A stretch of DNA of 59,456 nt from a virus, in IMG/VR virus record IMGVR_UViG_3300046093_000047, positions 1-59,456 of that record. One strand, written 5' to 3'. Made by a program: the position numbers and the translations under genes. Under the pieces are notes generated by a model. That model was not told the origin of the DNA. It saw only the letters and a program-made list of their open reading frames with translations, and searched no databases. Positions 2,921 through 15,379 of this stretch are shown here, one piece after another. Within the stretch, counting starts at the first letter, position 1, and each line of letters starts with the position of its first letter.

Positions 2921-3696
2921 TATCGCCCTTTCTTAAATTGTTTATCTTGCTCTGCTTGAGAAATAATAGCAGTACCTTTAGAGTCTTCAATGATTTCTTC
3001 TTCAAAAGCAATTACGAATTCTTTAGTCAAGCCTGAACGTACAATCTCATCCCTTGTAAAACCAACAAACGCTGTATCTGGAATATTATACTTTTTGATA
3101 ATTTTTTCTAGGTACACCAGACCAGTCATTCCATTTCTTACATCTGATTGCATTTCTGCATTATCACCGCAAAAGACAATCTGAGAGTCGTTACCTACAC
3201 GAGTAGTCAATGCTTGAATCTCAGGTACATACAGGTTTTGACTTTCATCTACAATGATGATGCTGTCATTCCAGCTTCTACCTCGGATAGTCTCCAAGCT
3301 ACAAATCTCAATAGTTTTATTCTTCAGATGAATTTCTGTAGTAGCTTTACCTAAGTAGTCTTCAAAGTAGTCAATCATCTGTTGGTAAAACGGCAACAAC
3401 TTCTCTTCTGCTGTACCGGGAAGAAAACCAATGCTTCGACCAGCCAACGGTTGGTATGCACGAATCAGTACAACCTTTTTAATATCACCGTAGTGCAATT
3501 TCTTAGCTGCATGGTGAATAGCTAACAAAGTTTTACCAGTACCTGCACTGCCTCGTGCTACTACCAAAGTATTATACTTTAGGGCTTCCAATAGTTCTTG
3601 CTGTTTGTCATTCATTGCAAACAAAGGTGGAAACTGTACTCTTGCAAACTTCTCTTTTTGTACACGTTGTGATTGTACTTTTTGATTTCTTTTCAT
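2920..3696 (-). CDS. phoH: PhoH-like P-loop ATPase
   Basis: A 258-residue protein with Walker A GSAGTGKT around residues 50-57 and Walker B IIIVDESQN in the middle, followed by TTRVG and FCGDNAEMQSD motifs, as in the PhoH family of helicase-like ATPases. PhoH-like genes are common in phages; the proposed role is RNA or phosphate-stress metabolism but is not settled. The N-terminal 20 residues are basic. It is in a leftward operon with the gene at 3778, read from the promoter at 4083-4111. Confidence 0.92.
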   Translation of the reverse strand: MKRNQKVQSQRVQKEKFARVQFPPLFAMNDKQQELLEALKYNTLVVARGSAGTGKTLLAIHHAAKKLHYGDIKKVVLIRAYQPLAGRSIGFLPGTAEEKLLPFYQQMIDYFEDYLGKATTEIHLKNKTIEICSLETIRGRSWNDSIIIVDESQNLYVPEIQALTTRVGNDSQIVFCGDNAEMQSDVRNGMTGLVYLEKIIKKYNIPDTAFVGFTRDEIVRSGLTKEFVIAFEEEIIEDSKGTAIISQAEQDKQFKKGR

Positions 3697-3777
3697 AAAT
3701 CCCCTTTTACTACTTAGGATATATTAATAATAATACCTCAAGGGTTATCTTAAGGTATTGGATGATAATATCAAATA

Positions 3778-4035
3778 TTATTCTTTAGGTTTACGACCAC
3801 GTTTAACTTCAGTATTAACTACAGGTGTTTCTTCAGTATTATCTTCAGTTACCAATTCGGTTGGACCTTTAATTTTAGGTTGTGCTTTAACCATACCTGT
3901 AACTAGCATTGATCCAAATGCAGTTGGGAACAAATCGTTAGATTCAAAGTCAAATCGCCAGCCTTCAATGATACTTTGCTCTACAGCTTGACAGAACTCA
4001 TATAAGCTATAAGTTTCAATTCTCTTAATTTCCAT
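3778..4035 (-). CDS. Small conserved phage protein with basic tail
   Basis: An 85-residue protein with an N-terminal aromatic/acidic domain (SLYEFCQAVEQSI, GWRFDFES) and a disordered acidic linker ending in KRGRKPKE, which resembles an AT-hook. It is the first gene after the consensus minus-strand promoter at 4083-4111 with a 5' leader of about 40 bases, so it is probably expressed early. The tail suggests nucleic-acid contact; the function is unknown. Confidence 0.7.
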   Translation of the reverse strand: MEIKRIETYSLYEFCQAVEQSIIEGWRFDFESNDLFPTAFGSMLVTGMVKAQPKIKGPTELVTEDNTEETPVVNTEVKRGRKPKE

Positions 4036-4082
4036 AAATACTCCTTATTAAAGTTAAACTCAATGCTTGCTGAGTTAGGTCA

Positions 4083-4111
4083 ATTATAGCACAACCAACT
4101 ATGCAAGTCAA
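4083..4111 (-). promoter_or_regulatory. Sigma70 promoter, leftward operon
   Basis: On the minus strand TTGACT (4106-4111) is followed by a 17-base spacer and TATAAT (4083-4088), with an extended TGC before the -10. It drives the genes 4035 down to 1665. Confidence 0.88.
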
Positions 4112-4133
4112 CACAAATATTTTTAAATAAAGC

Positions 4134-4162
4134 TTGACAAACGCAAAAACGTATGCTACACT
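4134..4162 (+). promoter_or_regulatory. Sigma70 promoter, rightward
   Basis: TTGACA (4134-4139), a 17-base spacer and TACACT (4157-4162) preceded by TGC. It is divergent from the promoter at 4083-4111. The first ORF downstream starts at 4611, leaving a leader of about 440 bases. Confidence 0.75.
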
Positions 4163-4173
4163 AAGAATATACT

Positions 4174-4371
4174 AACGTATATAACTACAGTTATACATCA
4201 GTTAAACCTATGTTATAACGTATATTACTATATCTGTAACCTTTGATGTTATATCTAATAGTACTATAGATAGTAACATTAGATGTTAACGTTATTTAAT
4301 CCTATAATAAAAGAGATATAAATAACTTAAGTATAATATATGTTATAACGTATATAATAACTACAGTTATA
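4174..4371. repeat. AT-rich repeat zone
   Basis: TATGTTATAACGTATAT occurs identically at 4209-4225 and 4339-4355. AACGTATAT followed by AACTACAGTTATA occurs near 4174-4195 and 4347-4371, and further partial and inverted copies lie between. The stretch is very AT rich with no ORF. Placement between divergent promoters suggests an operator array or replication origin; that is inference. Confidence 0.65.
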
Positions 4372-4380
4372 TATTAACTC

Positions 4381-4610
4381 TTTTCTTTTGGCTACGCCCG
4401 ATAGCTTGTCCTCAAGCCGGTTGGCTCTCTTGCAGAGTGCATGTTGAACCTTGCAGCTAACATAGCTCATGCAAAACCTTCAGCAAGGCATCTAAAACGC
4501 TCTACAAGGCTTCAATTTTAAGTTGCCTAGGGATGTGTAGCCTGAAGGTACGAAACGAGCGTATAGGCCGTTTAATCGTAAACATGAACTAACCTTATGA
4601 TGGTGCAAAT
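4381..4610 (+). ncRNA. Structured leader RNA upstream of the HNH-like gene
   Basis: No ORF. Composition changes abruptly from AT rich to balanced at about 4381. Predicted pairings by eye are ACCTTCAG 4476-4483 with CTGAAGGT 4542-4549 (8 bp perfect), and GCATG with CATGC and CCTTGC with GCAAGG in 4438-4495. GCTcTACA/TGTAGC and AGGC/GCCT lie inside the 8-bp stem. It is transcribed from the promoter at 4134 and may control translation of the gene at 4611 or be processed separately. Confidence 0.5.
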
Positions 4611-5102
4611 ATGAACATAATTGAATTGAAAGAAACTATTGATTATGATCTCTTCGCAGGAGCCTTCTATTTACTAAAGAACAACTGCAGATATAGAAGA
4701 ATATTTCCAAACGAAGATGGTTATATCATATTTTATAAAAATAGTAAAAGATTAAAATTTAAAGCTAATAAGTTAGCAATTGAGTTTGTGCAAAATATTG
4801 ATGTGCAAAAAGATAAAGTAGTATTGCACAAAAACTTAGATGATACTGATTATAGATATATTAATTTAAAACTAATATCTAAGAAAGTGCATAACACAAT
4901 TAAAGAAGCACATAGGAATTTATCTGGTGCTTTAAAGCTCCAGCCTCATGCAAAGGATGTCTTCTCTTATGTTTTAACTTGGAAAGAAAACTCCAAAGAT
5001 AAAATCTTAGTTGTGCAAGACATAGTAATAGCCAGAAGGTTATATACAAGGTTGCAACTCAAATATGCTAAGATTTTAAACAAGTTCTGTGTATTTGATT
5101 GA
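4611..5102 (+). CDS. HNH-like protein, degenerate
   Basis: A 163-residue protein. The segment VVLHKNLDDTDYRYINLKLIS near residues 85-105 matches the spacing of the HNH motif (His, Asn, Asn), but the first catalytic Asp-His pair is LH rather than DH. It may be catalytically weak or a decayed homing nuclease. The rest is lysine rich without other recognised domains. It stands alone between two promoters. A structured leader precedes it, as for the double nuclease at 23448. No clear Shine-Dalgarno sequence is visible. Confidence 0.6.
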   Translation: MNIIELKETIDYDLFAGAFYLLKNNCRYRRIFPNEDGYIIFYKNSKRLKFKANKLAIEFVQNIDVQKDKVVLHKNLDDTDYRYINLKLISKKVHNTIKEAHRNLSGALKLQPHAKDVFSYVLTWKENSKDKILVVQDIVIARRLYTRLQLKYAKILNKFCVFD

Positions 5103-5110
5103 TATTTCTC

Positions 5111-5139
5111 TTGAAATTTACGTATTCGTGTGCTATAAT
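5111..5139 (+). promoter_or_regulatory. Sigma70 promoter before a non-coding unit
   Basis: TTGAAA (5111-5116), a 17-base spacer and TATAAT (5134-5139) with extended TGC. The next 230 bases contain no credible ORF, so its direct product appears to be the RNA at 5146-5370. Confidence 0.85.
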
Positions 5140-5145
5140 CAAGGC

Positions 5146-5370
5146 TTCTATGTAAATTAAGTTATAGACTTTACGTAAATTGCACTATTAAGCGGTGCAA
5201 CCCTGCGCAAAGACATTAACAACTTAACCCTACATAGAAGTAAACCTTCATATGTTAGTCTAATTGCCCTTTCACTCCTTTCAGCGTTAGATGCTTCGGT
5301 ATGAGCTGGACTAGTAACCAGCACTAACACACAGTTAGTTCTTGCACTAACATAAATTTGTACACCATAC
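5146..5370 (+). ncRNA. Candidate structured non-coding RNA
   Basis: Transcription from the promoter at 5111 should begin near 5146. Visible stems are the palindrome TTTACGTAAA (5170-5179), TTGCAC 5180-5185 with GTGCAA 5195-5200, and ACAT..AAG with CTTC..ATGT near 5232-5260. A nested hairpin GTTAG[GCTGG/CCAGC]CTAAC lies at about 5285-5330. A second promoter begins at 5371, and no intrinsic terminator separates them, so the RNA may be processed or read into the tRNA operon. I do not recognise a known RNA family. Confidence 0.5.
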
Positions 5371-5400
5371 TTGACAAAAGACATTACTTATGTCTATAAT
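5371..5400 (+). promoter_or_regulatory. Sigma70 promoter of the tRNA operon
   Basis: TTGACA (5371-5376), an 18-base spacer and a perfect TATAAT (5395-5400). It drives the zinc-ribbon gene at 5425 and probably the tRNA array and onward. Confidence 0.85.
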
Positions 5401-5424
5401 GAAGAAACACAATAAGAATACCCT

Positions 5425-5625
5425 ATGAAATGCGTAATTTGTAACCAATACTTCAAACGTTCAGTCTTTAACCAGACTTTTGAATGCGATGCATGTCAAG
5501 CGATTGTATTAGATGAATTTGATTCTGAAATGCAAGTTGAAGTGGAATTGCTAAGGCATCCTTCAGGTAAAACTCAAGCTGTTATCTATGATGATATGAA
5601 CGATGATACCGGGGATTCAATTTAA
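5425..5625 (+). CDS. Small zinc-ribbon protein
   Basis: A 66-residue protein with two CxxC knuckles (CVIC at residues 3-6 and CDAC at 21-24), a classic zinc ribbon, followed by an acidic tail (DDMNDDTGDSI). Such small phage zinc-ribbon proteins are common and usually of unknown role; they may touch RNA polymerase or RNA. It is first in the operon that contains the tRNAs. The leader is only about 18 bases, with no strong Shine-Dalgarno, so initiation may be weak or nearly leaderless. The stop is four bases before the first tRNA. Confidence 0.8.
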   Translation: MKCVICNQYFKRSVFNQTFECDACQAIVLDEFDSEMQVEVELLRHPSGKTQAVIYDDMNDDTGDSI

Positions 5626-5628
5626 TAT

Positions 5629-5702
5629 AGCGGGTAAGGTGGTCACTACTGCAGTCTCATAAGCTCGCAGCATCACTGGTTCGAATCCAGTACCCGCTTC
5701 CA
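5629..5702 (+). tRNA. tRNA with CAT anticodon (Met or Ile2), atypical D-arm
   Basis: Acceptor AGCGGGT/ACCCGCT, T-arm ACTGG-TTCGAAT-CCAGT and encoded CCA are clear. The loop CTCATAA (5656-5662) gives anticodon CAT. The D-arm is short, and the anticodon stem pairs only with a bulge, so the fold is not canonical. CAT could be Met or, if modified, Ile. Confidence 0.65.
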
Positions 5703-5709
5703 AATTTAA

Positions 5710-5784
5710 GCTACTATCGTCTATCGGTTAGGACATCTGGTTTTCATCCAGACAAGCGGAGTTCGATTCTCCGTAGTAGCTCCA
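5710..5784 (+). tRNA. tRNA-Glu (TTC)
   Basis: Acceptor GCTACTA/TAGTAGC, anticodon stem CTGG/CCAG with loop TTTTCAT (anticodon TTC), T-arm CGGAG-TTCGATT-CTCCG and encoded CCA. Confidence 0.93.
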
Positions 5785-5944
5785 GAGCAAAATAATGGAA
5801 CTGGTAGGATCATCCATTCAACGGTTGTTAGTGACGATGGGGGCTATCGGAACTTTCAAATAAACGTGTATTCCGCAACTACGTTAAAAGTTCGGCTGCT
5901 CAATCGCCAACGGAAAGAGCATAAGGTTACAGTTGGATAAATTT
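5785..5944 (+). other. Structured spacer inside the tRNA array
   Basis: 160 bases with no ORF and no canonical tRNA. Local stems are AATGGA 5794-5799/TCCATT 5813-5818, CCAAC 5907-5911/GTTGG 5932-5936, and a two-part stem GAACTTT 5850-5856/AAAGTTC 5887-5893 enclosing AACGT 5863-5867/ACGTT 5881-5885. It could be a processed RNA or a remnant of decayed tRNAs. Confidence 0.5.
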
Positions 5945-6020
5945 TGGCATATAGCTCAGTTGGTAGAGCGTGAAACTGTTAATTTCAATGTCCGTGGTTC
6001 GAGGCCACGTATGCCAGCCA
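5945..6020 (+). tRNA. tRNA-Asn (GTT)
   Basis: Acceptor TGGCATA/TATGCCA, D-stem GCTC/GAGC, anticodon stem TGAAA/TTTCA with loop CTGTTAA (GTT), T-arm CGTGG-TTCGAGG-CCACG and encoded CCA. Confidence 0.94.
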
Positions 6021-6026
6021 AATAGT

Positions 6027-6102
6027 GTATCTGTAGCTCAATTGGCAGAGCATTGGATTCCAAATCCAAGGGTTAGTGGTTCAAGTCCATTCGGGTACGC
6101 CA
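6027..6102 (+). tRNA. tRNA-Trp (CCA)
   Basis: Acceptor GTATCTG/CGGGTAC (with G-T pairs), D-stem GCTC/GAGC, anticodon stem TTGGA/TCCAA with loop TTCCAAA (anticodon CCA), TTCAAGT T-loop and encoded 3' CCA. Confidence 0.92.
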
Positions 6103-6107
6103 AATAT

Positions 6108-6198
6108 AGGTGATTGGTTGAGAGGCCGAAAACAGCGGATTGCTAATCCGTAGGGTAGTAATACTGCCCCGTGCGTTCGAATCGCACATCACCTGCCA
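6108..6198 (+). tRNA. tRNA-Ser (GCT), long variable arm
   Basis: Acceptor AGGTGAT/ATCACCT, anticodon stem CGGAT/ATCCG with loop TGCTA region giving GCT, a long variable arm as expected for Ser, T-arm GTGCG-TTCGAAT-CGCAC and encoded CCA. Confidence 0.93.
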
Positions 6199-6204
6199 AT
6201 AAAA

Positions 6205-6280
6205 CTGAGTGTAGCCTAGATAGTCAGGCACTTGATTTGGGGTCAAGACCACGGGTATGCGAGTTACCCCATTCAGACCA
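6205..6280 (+). tRNA. tRNA-Pro (TGG)
   Basis: Acceptor CTGAGTG/CATTCAG, D-stem GCCT/AGGC, anticodon stem CTTGA/TCAAG with loop TTTGGGG (TGG), T-arm GGGTA/TACCC and encoded CCA. Confidence 0.9.
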
Positions 6281-6337
6281 ATCTTTGTTCTCCATTTGCG
6301 AATGGCGAATGCGCTATATTAGAATAGCAAATAATTA

Positions 6338-6423
6338 GGATACGTATACCGTTAAGGAGACGGTCTGGTCTGTAAAACCAGCGCCACATGGCTCGTATGG
6401 ATCGTTACCATAAGTATCCACCA
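6338..6423 (+). tRNA. tRNA-Tyr (GTA), long variable arm
   Basis: Acceptor GGATAC/GTATCC, anticodon stem CTGGT/ACCAG with loop CTGTAAA (GTA), a long variable arm, T-stem TATGG/CCATA and encoded CCA. The T-loop ATCGTTA departs from TTCGANT. Confidence 0.85.
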
Positions 6424-6690
6424 TAAACCGTTCGAGAGATAGCTTATGCTATTACGGGAAGTAGCAAGGGGTGCGACTTACGCTATAAGTTAAAACGCAC
6501 ACTTACATTAAAGAACTCTACCTTAGGGTCCGAAGTAGCCTCGGTTTTAGGCGTCCCACGAATCTGTTGCGTGGTAACACGGAGTTTAGAAGCTTCGGGT
6601 AAGCACCGCCAAGTGCTTACGCAAAGGATACAGCGTACTCATCTGCGGTAGATACGAAAAGGCTACTCGGGAGTCGTAACCCGAACTAAC
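6424..6690 (+). ncRNA. Hairpin-rich RNA region after the tRNA array
   Basis: 267 bases without an ORF. Stems by eye: ATAGC 6439-6443/GCTAT 6448-6452; GTGCG 6471-6475/CGCAC 6496-6500 with inner ACTTA/TAAGT. A cloverleaf-like unit closes with CCGAAG 6530-6535/CTTCGG 6593-6598 and holds GCC/GGC and CCACG/CGTGG arms. Then a perfect 8-bp hairpin GTAAGCAC 6599-6606/GTGCTTAC 6613-6620, and TCGGG 6667-6671/CCCGA 6680-6684. There is no T tract, so these are not terminators. It may be a processed ncRNA or the terminase leader. Confidence 0.5.
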
Positions 6691-6702
6691 ACAGGAGAAT
6701 AT

Positions 6703-7044
6703 ATGTTCGAAAAAGGTAAATCAGGTAATCCAAACGGTCGTCCTAAACGGTCAGACACTTCGGATAAACCAACTAACCGTGAGCTAAAAGAGCGTGAATT
6801 AGTCATGCTACTACGTAAGATCAAACCTCACGTAGCTGAAGCTATTGTGCAAGCGGCTAACATCATGAAGAACGCAGAAGCCAGTCACCAAAACCAGTTA
6901 AAAGCTGCAACTATCCTTTTGGATAACTATCGCAGATTAACCTTGGACATGTACGATGGCGAAGAGCAAGCCGATGAAGCTGGCGTGGAAGTGCAGCAAA
7001 ATAATGCAGCAATTTTTAGCTTGAAAGTTGTTAACGAAGATTGA
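6703..7044 (+). CDS. terS: Probable terminase small subunit
   Basis: A 113-residue protein. The N terminus carries KGKSGNPNGRPKR, a motif common at the start of DUF5681-type and small-terminase proteins. A helical body (residues 30-90) and an acidic C-terminal tail follow. It lies directly upstream of the large terminase, interrupted only by a homing nuclease, which supports a DNA-recognition role in packaging. A good Shine-Dalgarno (AGGAGA) precedes the ATG. Small terminases diverge strongly, so position carries much of the weight. Confidence 0.7.
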   Translation: MFEKGKSGNPNGRPKRSDTSDKPTNRELKERELVMLLRKIKPHVAEAIVQAANIMKNAEASHQNQLKAATILLDNYRRLTLDMYDGEEQADEAGVEVQQNNAAIFSLKVVNED

Positions 7045-7132
7045 TTTTATACAACAGCTAGGTTGGCCCACCGAAAAGACGATTACTCACCGTCCTGCTG
7101 ATTGTTTATTGTGAGTTTCATTGGAGAATGAA

Positions 7133-7621
7133 ATGAAGAATTGCAAACGTTGTAATCAAGAGAAAGACTTATCTGAATTTTACAAAGCGAAAACATCTAA
7201 AGATGGTCATCAATCGCACTGTAAAGACTGTCATAGTAAAACGAATAGTCAGAGATATTACGAAAAGCATGAAGAAAATCGTGCGCGACTTTCAAAGTAT
7301 TATTTAGATAACCACGAAAAAGAAAAAGCTTCTCGTAGGGAGCACTATCAAAAGAACAAATCAACATATCTATTTAACTTTTATAAAAGAGAGTATAGAT
7401 TAAAAGAGGCTACACCTAACTGGTTAACTGCTGAAATGCTGTCTGAAATAAAAGACATTTACGCAAGAAGGCAGGAAATATCTAATGTAGCGGGTGTAGA
7501 ACATCACGTAGATCACATTGTACCAATTCAAGGCATTGATGTTTGCGGTTTGCACGTTCCTTGGAATCTTCAAATATTGACCGCAGAAGAAAACTTAAGG
7601 AAAAGTAATAAGTATGAGTGA
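7133..7621 (+). CDS. HNH homing endonuclease
   Basis: A 162-residue protein starting at the ATG at 7133 behind GGAG (7123-7126); a TTG at 7121 is in frame but overlaps that site. The N terminus has a zinc-finger pair (CKRCNQ, CKDC), the middle is lysine rich, and the C terminus carries HHVDHIVP and GLHVPWNLQ with the HNH residues. It is a close relative of the gene at 43670 (shared WLTA, HVDHIVP, GLHVPWNLQ, ENL.KSNK). It sits between the two terminase genes and overlaps the terL start by 8 bases. Confidence 0.92.
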   Translation: MKNCKRCNQEKDLSEFYKAKTSKDGHQSHCKDCHSKTNSQRYYEKHEENRARLSKYYLDNHEKEKASRREHYQKNKSTYLFNFYKREYRLKEATPNWLTAEMLSEIKDIYARRQEISNVAGVEHHVDHIVPIQGIDVCGLHVPWNLQILTAEENLRKSNKYE

Positions 7622-9083
7622 ACAAATAATTATCGGACCAGCAAGTAAAAAGCAAGAGTTATTTTTAAACAGCGATGCAACGATTACTTTAGCAGGGGGT
7701 GCTGCAGGTTCTGGTAAAACTTATACTGCTCTTCTTATTGCACTTAAATTTATGCAAAATCCCAGAGCAACTGGAGTTATCTTTCGTAGAACTTCTAAGA
7801 TGCTAACTGCTCCCGGATCAATCTGGCATGAAGCTGTGCATTTGTACACTAGTATTTACCCTAATCTTAGGATTCGATCTAGAGAGCTTGAGTTAATTTT
7901 CCCAAATGGTGCATTACTTAAATTTAGTCACATGCAACATGCAACCAACGCCTTGGATCACAAAGGTGGTCAATACTCGTTGGTAATCTTTGACGAAGCA
8001 ACAGACTTTGAAGAAGAGATGGTCGTTTATTTGCTATCTCGTATGCGTAATGCTTACGTAGATTATAAACCGCAGATGTTTTTAATGACGAACCCCGACT
8101 ACAATTCATTTTTAAGAGCTTGGTTAGAAGATTACTATCTAGACCCAAACACGGGTATTCCACTCCCTGAAAAAACAGGGCATAAACGTTATTTCTTTCG
8201 TCAAGGCAACACTATGCTTTGGTATAACAGTTTAGCCGAAGCTGAAGCAGCACATGGTGCAGGAGATGAGTCCGGTATTTCATCGTTTACATTCATTGGT
8301 GCAACCTGCCGTGATAACCCTCCACTACTTAAAGCACAACCAGATTATATCAGCCGATTGATGTCCCTTCCTCGCGTAGAGAAAGAAAGACTACTTGATG
8401 GCTCATGGTTTGCTCGTCAAGAGTCCGCTGGTCTGTTTAAACGCGAGTGGGTCGGTCTTGTAGATCATGCGAACGGTAGAGCTAGAAAAAGAATTAGAGC
8501 TTGGGACTTTGCGTTTAGTAAACCCTCAGAGCAATATCCTAATCCTGACTGGTCACGAGGTGTTCTAATCTCTAAAGACCCGAACAATCTTTACACAGTA
8601 GAAGATGTAGTATCTTTGCGCGACAGAGTACACGAGGTAGAAAAGCTGGTTTTCGAAACTGCTCTTCGTGACGGTCAAGACGTAACTATCAGTATTCCAT
8701 TGGACCCTGCTGCAGCCGCTGGAGCTTACGCTAAAGATTTACAGCGCAAGTTAGCTGAAATGGGTTTTCACGTAAGACTAACAAAACCTGTTAAGTCTAA
8801 GATTACTCGTTTTGCTCCTTTCTCAAGTATAGCACAAGCTGGATTCGTAAACGTAGTAAAAGCTAACTGGAATAAAGATTTCTTTGATGAACTAGAAGTG
8901 TTCGATGGTGATCCTAAAAAGAAAGATGACCAAGTTGATTGCTGCTCAGATGCAATGCTGTTGTTAAATAAAGATACTCAGCTACCAGTATTTTCACTAC
9001 CAGATTTTACAGGTAGTAACCCTTTCGATGGAAGCATCACAGGCTCCAATATTCCTACATTTCAAAGTTCATTAGTTTCATAA
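7614..9083 (+). CDS. terL: Terminase large subunit
   Basis: A 489-residue DNA-packaging motor. The N-terminal ATPase has Walker A GGAAGSGKT (residues 28-36) and Walker B LVIFDEATD (about 122-130), and MTNP is a likely coupling motif. The C-terminal RNase H-like nuclease begins with AWDFAFSKP and ends with the acidic DDQVDCCSDA segment. Length is normal for the family. It docks on the portal encoded next door and translocates DNA into proheads. The packaging type (cos or headful) cannot be judged by eye. Confidence 0.96.
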   Translation: MSEQIIIGPASKKQELFLNSDATITLAGGAAGSGKTYTALLIALKFMQNPRATGVIFRRTSKMLTAPGSIWHEAVHLYTSIYPNLRIRSRELELIFPNGALLKFSHMQHATNALDHKGGQYSLVIFDEATDFEEEMVVYLLSRMRNAYVDYKPQMFLMTNPDYNSFLRAWLEDYYLDPNTGIPLPEKTGHKRYFFRQGNTMLWYNSLAEAEAAHGAGDESGISSFTFIGATCRDNPPLLKAQPDYISRLMSLPRVEKERLLDGSWFARQESAGLFKREWVGLVDHANGRARKRIRAWDFAFSKPSEQYPNPDWSRGVLISKDPNNLYTVEDVVSLRDRVHEVEKLVFETALRDGQDVTISIPLDPAAAAGAYAKDLQRKLAEMGFHVRLTKPVKSKITRFAPFSSIAQAGFVNVVKANWNKDFFDELEVFDGDPKKKDDQVDCCSDAMLLLNKDTQLPVFSLPDFTGSNPFDGSITGSNIPTFQSSLVS

Positions 9084-13096: not shown

Positions 13097-15379
13097 ATGG
13101 CTTCTATCGTAAGAATTAAACGCTCAGATGTAGCAGGTAATCCTTCTACTCTTGGTCAAGGTGAATTAGCCTATTCTGCGTTACCAGATAACGGTAGTAA
13201 CGGTGGTGATCGTCTATACGTAGGTATGGGTACAGAGACTGCAGGTAATGCAGTTAACCACGTTGTTATCGGCGGTAAATACTTTACAGATAAACTCGAT
13301 CATACTCCCGGTACAGTTACACCTTCATCTGCGATCATCGTTGATGCCAACGGTAAGATTGACAACCTCAAAGTAGACAACATTGAAATTGATGCTAACA
13401 CGATTAGCTCAACAAACCTAAACGGTAACGTAAACATTGCACCAAATGGTTCAGGTTCTATTGTTCTAGATGGTCAATCTTGGCCTCAAACGTCCGGTAC
13501 AAACGGACAATATTTAAAGACAGACGGTTCAGGTCAAACCGTGTGGAGTAGTCCACCTTCAGGTGATTTCACTATCCAAGGCGACTCAGGTAGCGATTTA
13601 TTCAGTAATGGCGATACCCTGATCTTTTCAGGTACAGATGCAATTGACACTGTAGTAACCGATAATGAAGTTACAATTTCTGTAAAAGATGCAAGTAATA
13701 CTCAAAAGGGTGTAGCAAGTTTCAATACTACAGATTTCTCTGTAGCAGGTGGTGCTGTCAGTATTAACCACGAACACATTCAAGATGTAGTTGGTACAAT
13801 GGTTAGCTCCAACGTAGAAACTGGTATTTCTGTTACTTACGATGATACGAATGGTAAATTAGATTTTGCAGTTAATAGTCCTGTCATCACCATCTCTGGA
13901 GATGTAGACGGTACTGCTACGATGACCAATTTGGGTAACACAACCATTGCTGTTATACTAGATACAGTGAACTCCAACGTAGGTACATTTGGTTCTTCAA
14001 GTGCAGTTCCTGTTGTAACTGTAAACGAAAAAGGCTTAGTAACTGCTGTAAGTACTGCAGGTATTTCAACTTCATTCACTATTGCTGCTGATACTGGTAC
14101 TCCTGATGTTTTCAACAATGGTGAGACACTATCAATTGTAGGTGGTGAAGGTATTGATACCAGTATCAGCGGTGCAACTAATACAATTACAATTTCTGCT
14201 GAAAACGCTTCAGACACCAATAAAGGTGTAGCTACTTTTAATGCAGCTAACTTCTTGGTAACTTCTGGCGATGTTATCCTCAAAGACGCAGGTGTTACAA
14301 ACGCAAAGTTAGTTAACTCCAGTGTAACCGTAGGTACTTCGAACGTAGCACTAGGTGCAACGATTACTTCTTTAACTGGTCTAACTGAAGTTCAAGTAGA
14401 TAATTTAAACCTTAACGGTAACTCCTTAACCGCAACTGACGTTAACGGCAGTGTCGTATTGGTCCCTAACGGTAACGGTGTAGTTGATGTTTCAGATTCC
14501 CGTATTACTGGTGTAGCCGATCCTGTCAATGCAACAGATGCTGCCAACAAAGTTTACGTAGATAATGCTGTCACTGGTTTGAGTTTTAAGGCTGCTGTTA
14601 ATCTTTTTGCTAATACAAACATCGCATTAACAGGTAGCACTTCAACATTGGTTATTGATGGTCACTCTGCCTTAGATCAAACTGACAACGGTTATCGCAT
14701 TTTACTTACTGCACAGACAACAAACTCTGAAAACGGTATTTATGTTTATGCAGATAACGGTACAACTTACACACTATCCCGTGCTGCTGATACAGATGTT
14801 TACACCGAATTAGATGGTGCTTCAGTCTTCGTTGTAGAAGGCACTACATACGCTCAAACAGGTTGGGTACAAACTAATCATTATTTAACTAGCTTTGCAG
14901 GTCAAACTTGGGTTCAGTTCTCAGGTTCCGGTGCATATGTAGCTGGTGAAGGTTTAACATTAACTGGTACAACTTTCGATGTAGGCGCTGGCGCTGGTAT
15001 TGCAGTAACTGCTAACGCTGTATCTCTTGCAGACTCAGTTGCAGGTAACGGTCTAGCATTTAACGCAGGTGTAGTAAGTGCAGTTGGTACTGCTAATAGA
15101 ATTGCAGTGAGCGCAGACGCAATCGATATTGCTTCTACATACGTAGGTCAAACCAGTATCACCACATTAGGCACTATCTCAAGTGGTACTTGGTCTGCTG
15201 ATACCATTGCTACTACCAAGGGCGGTACAGGCTTGACAACTTACGCAACTGGTGATATACTGTATGCTTCTGGTTCAGATACTCTATCTAAATTAAGTAT
15301 TGGAACTAACGGTAAGGTGCTGCAAGTAAATGGTAGCGGTGTTCCAGTTTGGGCTGACATTGATGGTGGTACATACTAA
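13097..15379 (+). CDS. Large fibre protein with repeated strands
   Basis: A 760-residue protein. The N terminus (MASIVRIKRSD, GQGELAYS) belongs to the same family as the N termini of genes 15445 and 32711, so it is probably the virion-anchoring domain. The body has repeated units with TNKGVATFNA/TQKGVASFNT and NNLNLNGNSLTA-like segments, typical of long beta-helical fibres. It is nearly devoid of Cys and rich in Gly, Thr, Asn and Val. A perfect terminator follows. It may bind the host or decorate the head. Confidence 0.75.
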   Translation: MASIVRIKRSDVAGNPSTLGQGELAYSALPDNGSNGGDRLYVGMGTETAGNAVNHVVIGGKYFTDKLDHTPGTVTPSSAIIVDANGKIDNLKVDNIEIDANTISSTNLNGNVNIAPNGSGSIVLDGQSWPQTSGTNGQYLKTDGSGQTVWSSPPSGDFTIQGDSGSDLFSNGDTLIFSGTDAIDTVVTDNEVTISVKDASNTQKGVASFNTTDFSVAGGAVSINHEHIQDVVGTMVSSNVETGISVTYDDTNGKLDFAVNSPVITISGDVDGTATMTNLGNTTIAVILDTVNSNVGTFGSSSAVPVVTVNEKGLVTAVSTAGISTSFTIAADTGTPDVFNNGETLSIVGGEGIDTSISGATNTITISAENASDTNKGVATFNAANFLVTSGDVILKDAGVTNAKLVNSSVTVGTSNVALGATITSLTGLTEVQVDNLNLNGNSLTATDVNGSVVLVPNGNGVVDVSDSRITGVADPVNATDAANKVYVDNAVTGLSFKAAVNLFANTNIALTGSTSTLVIDGHSALDQTDNGYRILLTAQTTNSENGIYVYADNGTTYTLSRAADTDVYTELDGASVFVVEGTTYAQTGWVQTNHYLTSFAGQTWVQFSGSGAYVAGEGLTLTGTTFDVGAGAGIAVTANAVSLADSVAGNGLAFNAGVVSAVGTANRIAVSADAIDIASTYVGQTSITTLGTISSGTWSADTIATTKGGTGLTTYATGDILYASGSDTLSKLSIGTNGKVLQVNGSGVPVWADIDGGTY

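Follow-up and report, generated by a model that had tools for sequence, protein, structure and literature searches.

A new structured RNA upstream of the terminase genes of freshwater phages, with a loop that may mask ribosome-binding sites

What does a strong phage promoter transcribe when no gene follows it? This question is raised by the window analysed here, the whole 59,456-base stretch of a virus record, whose closest cultured relative is the Limnohabitans phage DC31 (TerL identity 93.3%). The region is flanked by an HNH-like ORF (4611-5102) on one side and by a 66-aa four-cysteine ORF on the other; a PHROG search gave no match for the latter, and behind it follow in order a tRNA array, a terS-like ORF, terL (7614-9083) and the portal gene. 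The initial annotation had read here a consensus promoter with an extended -10, about 225 bases of structured DNA with hairpins but no ORF, and a second strong promoter at 5371, and had argued from the tandem promoters that the first one serves the RNA itself. Our analysis indicates that the locus almost certainly encodes a genuine structured RNA, which we call RNA1, of about 180 nt, with homologues in dozens of freshwater phages and viral contigs, upstream of their terminase genes (Table 1).

Table 1. Features of the RNA1 locus and its surroundings in the window
Feature	Position	Strand	Remarks
RNA1 promoter: TTGAAA, 17-nt spacer, TGC-TATAAT (extended -10)	5111..5139	+	11/12 match; kept in 48/48 members
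Conserved core of RNA1, made up of hairpin units D1 (P1-P4), D2 (P5-P6) and P7	5145..5322	+	covariance model match 5144-5325, 179.5 bits
P1, 5' strand	5145..5154	+	pairs with 5231-5240; both-side changes in 10/10 pairs (fitted A5), 8/10 (unfitted A1)
Internal loop GUAAAU / (A)CCCU(GC), between P1 and P2		+	in D1
P2, 5' strand	5157..5163	+	pairs with 5221-5227; covariation on A1 and A5
P3	5169..5212	+	5169-5177 with 5204-5212; covariation on A1 and A5
Second internal loop GUAAAU/ACCCUGC, between P3 and P4	within 5169..5212	+	
P4	5180-5186 with 5194-5200	+	apical loop AUUAAGC 5187-5193; covariation on A1 and A5
D2 hairpin, large apical loop	5248..5304	+	P5 5248-5253 with 5299-5304; P6 5259-5264 with 5286-5291
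CUCCUUUC in D2 apical loop, anti-Shine-Dalgarno-like	5275..5282	+	8 nt identical to 16S 3' tail
P7 terminal hairpin, 5 bp, loop A-NNN-GU-N-A, then ACUAA	5305..5322	+	100% of cells paired, 5/5 pairs two-sided (A5)
Variable tail with ACUAA..UUAGU hairpins, outside the conserved RNA	5323..5370	+	no intrinsic terminator found
Second promoter TTGACA-18-TATAAT, ahead of four-cysteine ORF	5371..5400	+	12/12 match; in 3/19 clusters
Four-cysteine ORF, 66 aa, zinc-ribbon-like	5425..5625	+	usual 3' neighbour of RNA1
Second P7-type hairpin, TCGGG-AGTCGTAA-CCCGA then ACTAA	6667..6684	+	ahead of terS-like ORF
terS-like ORF	6703-7044		preceded by P7-type hairpin

The 226 bases from 5145 to 5370 fold with an energy of -53.9 kcal/mol (z -3.56), and none of 200 shuffled sequences folded as well. 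On the minus strand the fold is good too (z -4.62), which is what inverted repeats would give; we chose the plus strand on account of the direction of the conserved promoters. No plus-strand ORF of at least 30 aa starts in this stretch, as annotated, and the ORF list holds one on the minus strand. This 75-aa frame (5157-5384) was rejected as a gene because stop-free runs across the RNA1 members are short, with medians of 33 codons on the plus and 40 on the minus strand.

The fold is also supported by covariation. In alignment A1, made with MAFFT from 31 sequences and not fitted to the structure (L029, L046, L051, L062 and fragments, the partial or more divergent members known at that stage, were left aside), 37 of the 49 proposed pairs change on both sides, compared with a shuffled mean of 25.5, and none of 500 shuffles reached 37. 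Paired cells amount to 90.2%, against 74.4% after shuffling and 32-39% with the partners slid; since the proposed structure derives in the main from the fold of the window itself, the slid control favours the proposed pairs somewhat, whereas the two-sided changes are independent of this. RNAalifold on its own predicted 40 pairs, of which 29 are compensated. In A5, a structure-fitted alignment of 48 distinct members that by its making leans to the structure, 47 of 48 pairs are two-sided and 91.6% of the cells are paired. The D2 helices P5 and P6 vary on both sides at all six of their respective pairs in both alignments. Thus the hairpins noticed initially, for which missing covariation had been named as a refutation, are confirmed by fold energy and covariation alike, and the stretch is structured as described, but its conserved part ends at about 5322-5327 and not at 5370. 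Between P7 and the second promoter, the number of ACUAAU..AUUAGU hairpins in the tail differs between close relatives (e.g. L020, L011). Two further pairings were discarded: an outer helix between ATGTTAGT and ACTAACAT, which occurs in the window but whose sequence is not kept in relatives, and a pseudoknot between the P7 loop and the D2 internal loop (AAGUA/UACUU), considered by eye and broken in several members.

Homologues were collected by a TerL search, which brought 80 related contigs, and by a covariance model built from 31 sequences. The model finds RNA1 (E<0.01) in 45 of the 80, many of the others being too short to reach the site; where the contig holds the full 6 kb upstream of terL, RNA1 is present in 29 of 32 (the misses are L052, L053 and L078), and its end lies about 0.9 to 5.8 kb upstream of terL. 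Locus counts include some near-identical contigs, while member counts refer to distinct sequences. Loop and ORF counts are based on 49 members, namely the window, five found by pattern (L110, L115, L122, L124, L126), two by similarity (L002, L313), one by its small ORF (L091) and the remainder via TerL, some loci having been chosen for conserved motifs; promoter and pair counts are based on 48, with L313 left out. Outside these counts stand matches at E<=4.9e-7 in L348, L337, L338, L342, L334 and L320, as well as L326 and L336 (E 0.0078), which lack the RNA1 promoter; weaker matches (E 0.26-0.96) were discarded as probable chance. Clustering at 70% identity with single linkage groups the members into 19 clusters.

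Two members come from cultured phages, DC31 on Limnohabitans and P26059A on Curvibacter, which makes RNA1 directly testable. RNA1 lies in DC31 at record positions 13656-13837 on the minus strand (L002 7657-7838), between the annotated CDS 13353-13562 and 13908-14420, and in P26059A at 82888-83066 (L313 12889-13067, 90.9 bits), between CDS 82653-82847 and 83129-83350 and preceded by TTGACT-17-TATAAT with TG. In P26059A a TGC-TATAAT promoter stands ahead of non-coding DNA at L313 7225 as well. RNA1 is unannotated in both genomes; the portions of the two genome papers available to us (PMC12195039, PMC5964084) do not contain the words 'non-coding' or 'intergenic', and in the open-licence literature on structured phage RNAs, anti-Shine-Dalgarno RNAs, P26059A and Limnohabitans phages we found no description of it. 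Pseudomonas phage PHB09, which has a similar nearby gene order, gave no RNA1 match, and a TerL scan of genome contigs gave no host or prophage relatives.

Both annotated promoters hold good and rank among the best of 11 promoter-like sites in 3000-8000. Since sites of this general class are not enriched there (11 found, 15.9 expected), it is their conservation that counts as real promoter evidence. All 48 RNA1 homologues have an exact TATAAT upstream, with a spacer of 17 nt, and 46 of them also the TG, while any TATAAT occurs in 16%, and the score reached by all 48 members in 8%, of shuffled upstream sequences. The -10 box lies 3-5 nt before the start of the RNA1 model in 40 of the 48 members and 14-33 nt in the other eight, and transcription is therefore predicted to start within the P1 5' strand in most members. 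For the window, promoter geometry predicts transcription with a 5' end at about 5146 (5145-5147). Further upstream, the stretch 4083-4610 carries a divergent promoter-like pair (4111-4083 on the minus and 4134-4162 on the plus strand), behind which come AT-rich repeats and a non-coding stretch of higher GC content (4385-4560).

The second promoter has a different distribution. At a threshold of at least 10/12 it is found in 24 of the 49 loci, where shuffling would give 1.2, and these are confined to three of the 19 clusters, those of the window, of L030 (in this member only, out of five) and of L029/L051; in the other 16 none was found before the four-cysteine ORF. It carries a palindrome, possibly an operator (AGACAT..ATGTCT in the window, GTAGA..TCTAC in relatives). 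The argument from tandem promoters thus applies to the window's cluster but not generally: the RNA1 promoter does not serve the RNA alone, because elsewhere no other promoter was found ahead of the four-cysteine ORF, and by position RNA1 is therefore also the leader of this ORF. Promoter, RNA1 and small ORF without a second promoter is the common layout, which we infer to be older than the two-promoter one.

Rfam 15, searched at gathering thresholds, contains no match for RNA1 in the window region, GOLLD, ROOL, packaging RNA, 6S and tmRNA included. At E<=10 the only hit was mir-4003 (14.5 bits, gathering 70), a chance match to a microRNA; ten related loci gave nothing except tRNA, and neither ARAGORN nor Rfam matches RNA1 to a tRNA-like RNA or tmRNA. 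The initial annotation, which recognised no known family, is borne out, and as judged by these comparisons RNA1 is a new phage RNA family. There is hardly any probability left for the view that the stretch is ordinary intergenic DNA which folds by chance between two chance promoters: general promoter-like sites are indeed not enriched around RNA1, but the covariation and a promoter conserved in 48 of 48 members refute it, provided that the alignments are correct. This group of freshwater phages gains an RNA family that is strongly supported and, by these searches, not contained in Rfam 15.

As to its function, the loops of RNA1 provide the main clue. The eight bases of the CUCCUUUC motif recur in the 16S 3' tail of Lampropedia, Herbaspirillum and Paraburkholderia, three Burkholderiales whose tail ends GGATCACCTCCTTTCT; because this tail is common to many bacteria, the match is that of a general anti-Shine-Dalgarno and is not host-specific. 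Taking CUCCUU, AUCCUUU or UUCCUUU as the motif, and assigning it to D1 or D2 by position and by computed folds, an exposed CUCCUU-type hairpin loop is present in 14 of the 19 clusters (D2 in 11 and D1 in 4, with both in L044). The motif therefore persists although the hairpin that carries it changes. It is absent from five clusters (L062, L045/L046, L054, L132 and L133), four of which keep the AUUAAG loop in D1. Complements of the loop of at least 7 nt occur at 14 of the 71 ORF starts of the window, about as often as those of the 16S tail (13 of 71); generic Shine-Dalgarno complementarity, and no specific or conserved target, was found among them. Pairing of the loop with the start of the member's own four-cysteine ORF reaches p<=0.05 in just 6 of 41 members (window, p 0.34), four of the six being the close pairs L075/L072 and L029/L051, and masking of this neighbour's Shine-Dalgarno was rejected as exceeding chance in these six only. 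A pairing, seen by eye, of the CUCCUUU loop with AAAGGA in the terS-side RNA described below was dropped, two relatives having AAAGAA there.

We propose, tentatively and with the mechanism as a whole standing somewhat short of an even chance, that RNA1 is a phage small RNA whose exposed CUCCUU loop masks ribosome-binding sites in trans. The conserved sigma-70-type promoter would start transcription at the first helix, the 5' end would be protected inside P1, P7 and ACUAA would mark or protect the 3' end, and a stable RNA would be cut out of a read-through transcript near P7; since no terminator was found in the window, the independent 3' end is something we infer. The CUCCUU(U)C loop would be the working part, pairing in trans with the Shine-Dalgarno sequences of mRNAs and blocking their translation, which is the least certain step. 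Two observations make us favour pairing in trans: the motif is conserved although the stems and its hairpin change, and RNA1 persists at a distance from its neighbour, being intact where the four-cysteine ORF is displaced to +645 (L110), +694 (L023) or +905 nt (L132) and where it lies at +243 (L045) or +258 nt (L046). The second promoter between RNA1 and the ORF in three clusters also speaks for an independent RNA. Against the mechanism count the five clusters without a CUCCUU-type loop, the generic kind of complementarity and the leader-like layout, with the ORF usually lacking another promoter outside the window's cluster. If the loop works as proposed, the target of this phage RNA would be the initiation of translation.

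The leader-like layout is the core of an alternative that we consider possible though rather unlikely, in which RNA1 is a cis-acting 5' leader that controls the four-cysteine ORF together with the untranslated tRNA array downstream, by way of translation or stability or, as with the put RNAs of phage HK022, of antitermination. RNA1 follows a promoter in 48 of 48 members, and a script placed a four-cysteine ORF within 1.2 kb of it in all 49 loci. This ORF is at most 130 nt away in 44 of the 49 (the script gave 46, of which L110 and L023 are false matches, an HNH-like ORF having been inserted there downstream of RNA1 and ahead of the small ORF); moreover, 16 of 19 clusters show no second promoter, scanning the window revealed no terminator between P7 and the ORF, and a P7-type hairpin stands close before terS too. 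Yet pairing of the loop with its own ORF start is not beyond chance in most members, tail length and content are free to vary, the second promoter bypasses RNA1 in the window's cluster, and RNA1 is kept in the five loci with a displaced ORF. A conserved expression platform at the downstream start, through Shine-Dalgarno masking or a terminator, was not found, the terminator scan having covered the window. Less probable again, and in our view unlikely, is a protein-binding or scaffold RNA that would sequester a host translation or RNA-decay factor or help packaging, with AUUAAG, CUCCUUU and A-NNN-GU-N-A as candidate protein sites. Three conserved loops, the repeated GUAAAU/ACCCUGC internal loop, the place upstream of the terminase in the TerL-found members and the AUUAAG loop of four clusters without CUCCUU are consistent with it, but its partner is hypothetical, the distance to terL is variable, and Rfam, packaging RNA included, yields no match. 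Quite improbable, finally, is that RNA1 imitates the 3' tail of 16S rRNA as a viral decoy, transcribed from the infecting genome by the host polymerase; if true, it would compete with ribosomes for Shine-Dalgarno sequences cell-wide and help shift translation from host to phage.

RNA1 may not be the only conserved RNA of its locus. Between a tRNA-Tyr-like gene and terS, at 6420-6690 of the window, lies another non-coding stretch of high conservation (mean column identity 85% over 11 sequences) and unexceptional fold energy (z -1.22), and it ends in a P7-type hairpin, which is found at the equivalent place in many related loci. Over the examined loci, twice-fetched contigs included, 188 P7-like hairpins lie on the terL strand and a single one on the opposite strand. 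It is possible that P7 is a 3'-end or processing element of wider use, and the terminal hairpin in common suggests that a second conserved RNA lies ahead of terS. In L012, L014, L015 and L079 the BLAST match to this stretch is interrupted by about 0.8-1.7 kb, which looks like an insertion. Two probable tRNAs were missed by ARAGORN, at 5629-5699 (with CAT where the anticodon would be, and a sub-gathering Rfam tRNA score of 25.8 bits) and at 6342-6424, the latter resembling the tRNA-Tyr annotated in DC31.

How does RNA1 compare with known systems? The put RNAs of HK022 are structured RNAs that lie directly after a phage promoter and act in cis in antitermination; RNA1 resembles them in its place right behind a promoter, but put is shorter. 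The packaging RNA of phi29 is a small phage RNA with a dedicated promoter, a feature that RNA1 shares; however, the Rfam search did not match the two, and the distance of RNA1 to the packaging genes varies. GOLLD and ROOL are described, in the available part of PMC12286853, as structured RNAs of phages or prophages whose function is unknown and which often lie near tRNA islands; as far as that text goes RNA1 is far smaller at about 180 nt, and Rfam matches it to neither. As outlined in the accessible text of PMC5362039, NmsRA and NmsRB of Neisseria meningitidis have three stem-loops with UC-rich anti-Shine-Dalgarno regions and are reported to down-regulate mRNAs by Shine-Dalgarno pairing. On that outline, RNA1 likewise has an anti-Shine-Dalgarno region in a stem-loop RNA, a likeness by description, whereas these are bacterial small RNAs whose anti-Shine-Dalgarno lies partly between the stem-loops. 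Similar in design are the alpha-r14/cuckoo small RNAs of Rhizobiales (NfeR1), which, according to the part of PMC10746234 at hand, are reported to block translation by Shine-Dalgarno pairing and expose a conserved anti-Shine-Dalgarno motif, CCUCCUCCC, unpaired in all three of their variable-stemmed hairpins. Within the limits of that text, RNA1 too exposes a conserved anti-Shine-Dalgarno motif on hairpins with variable stems, but it is a phage RNA with other helices, and in place of CCUCCUCCC in three hairpins it carries a CUCCUUUC-like motif, usually in one.
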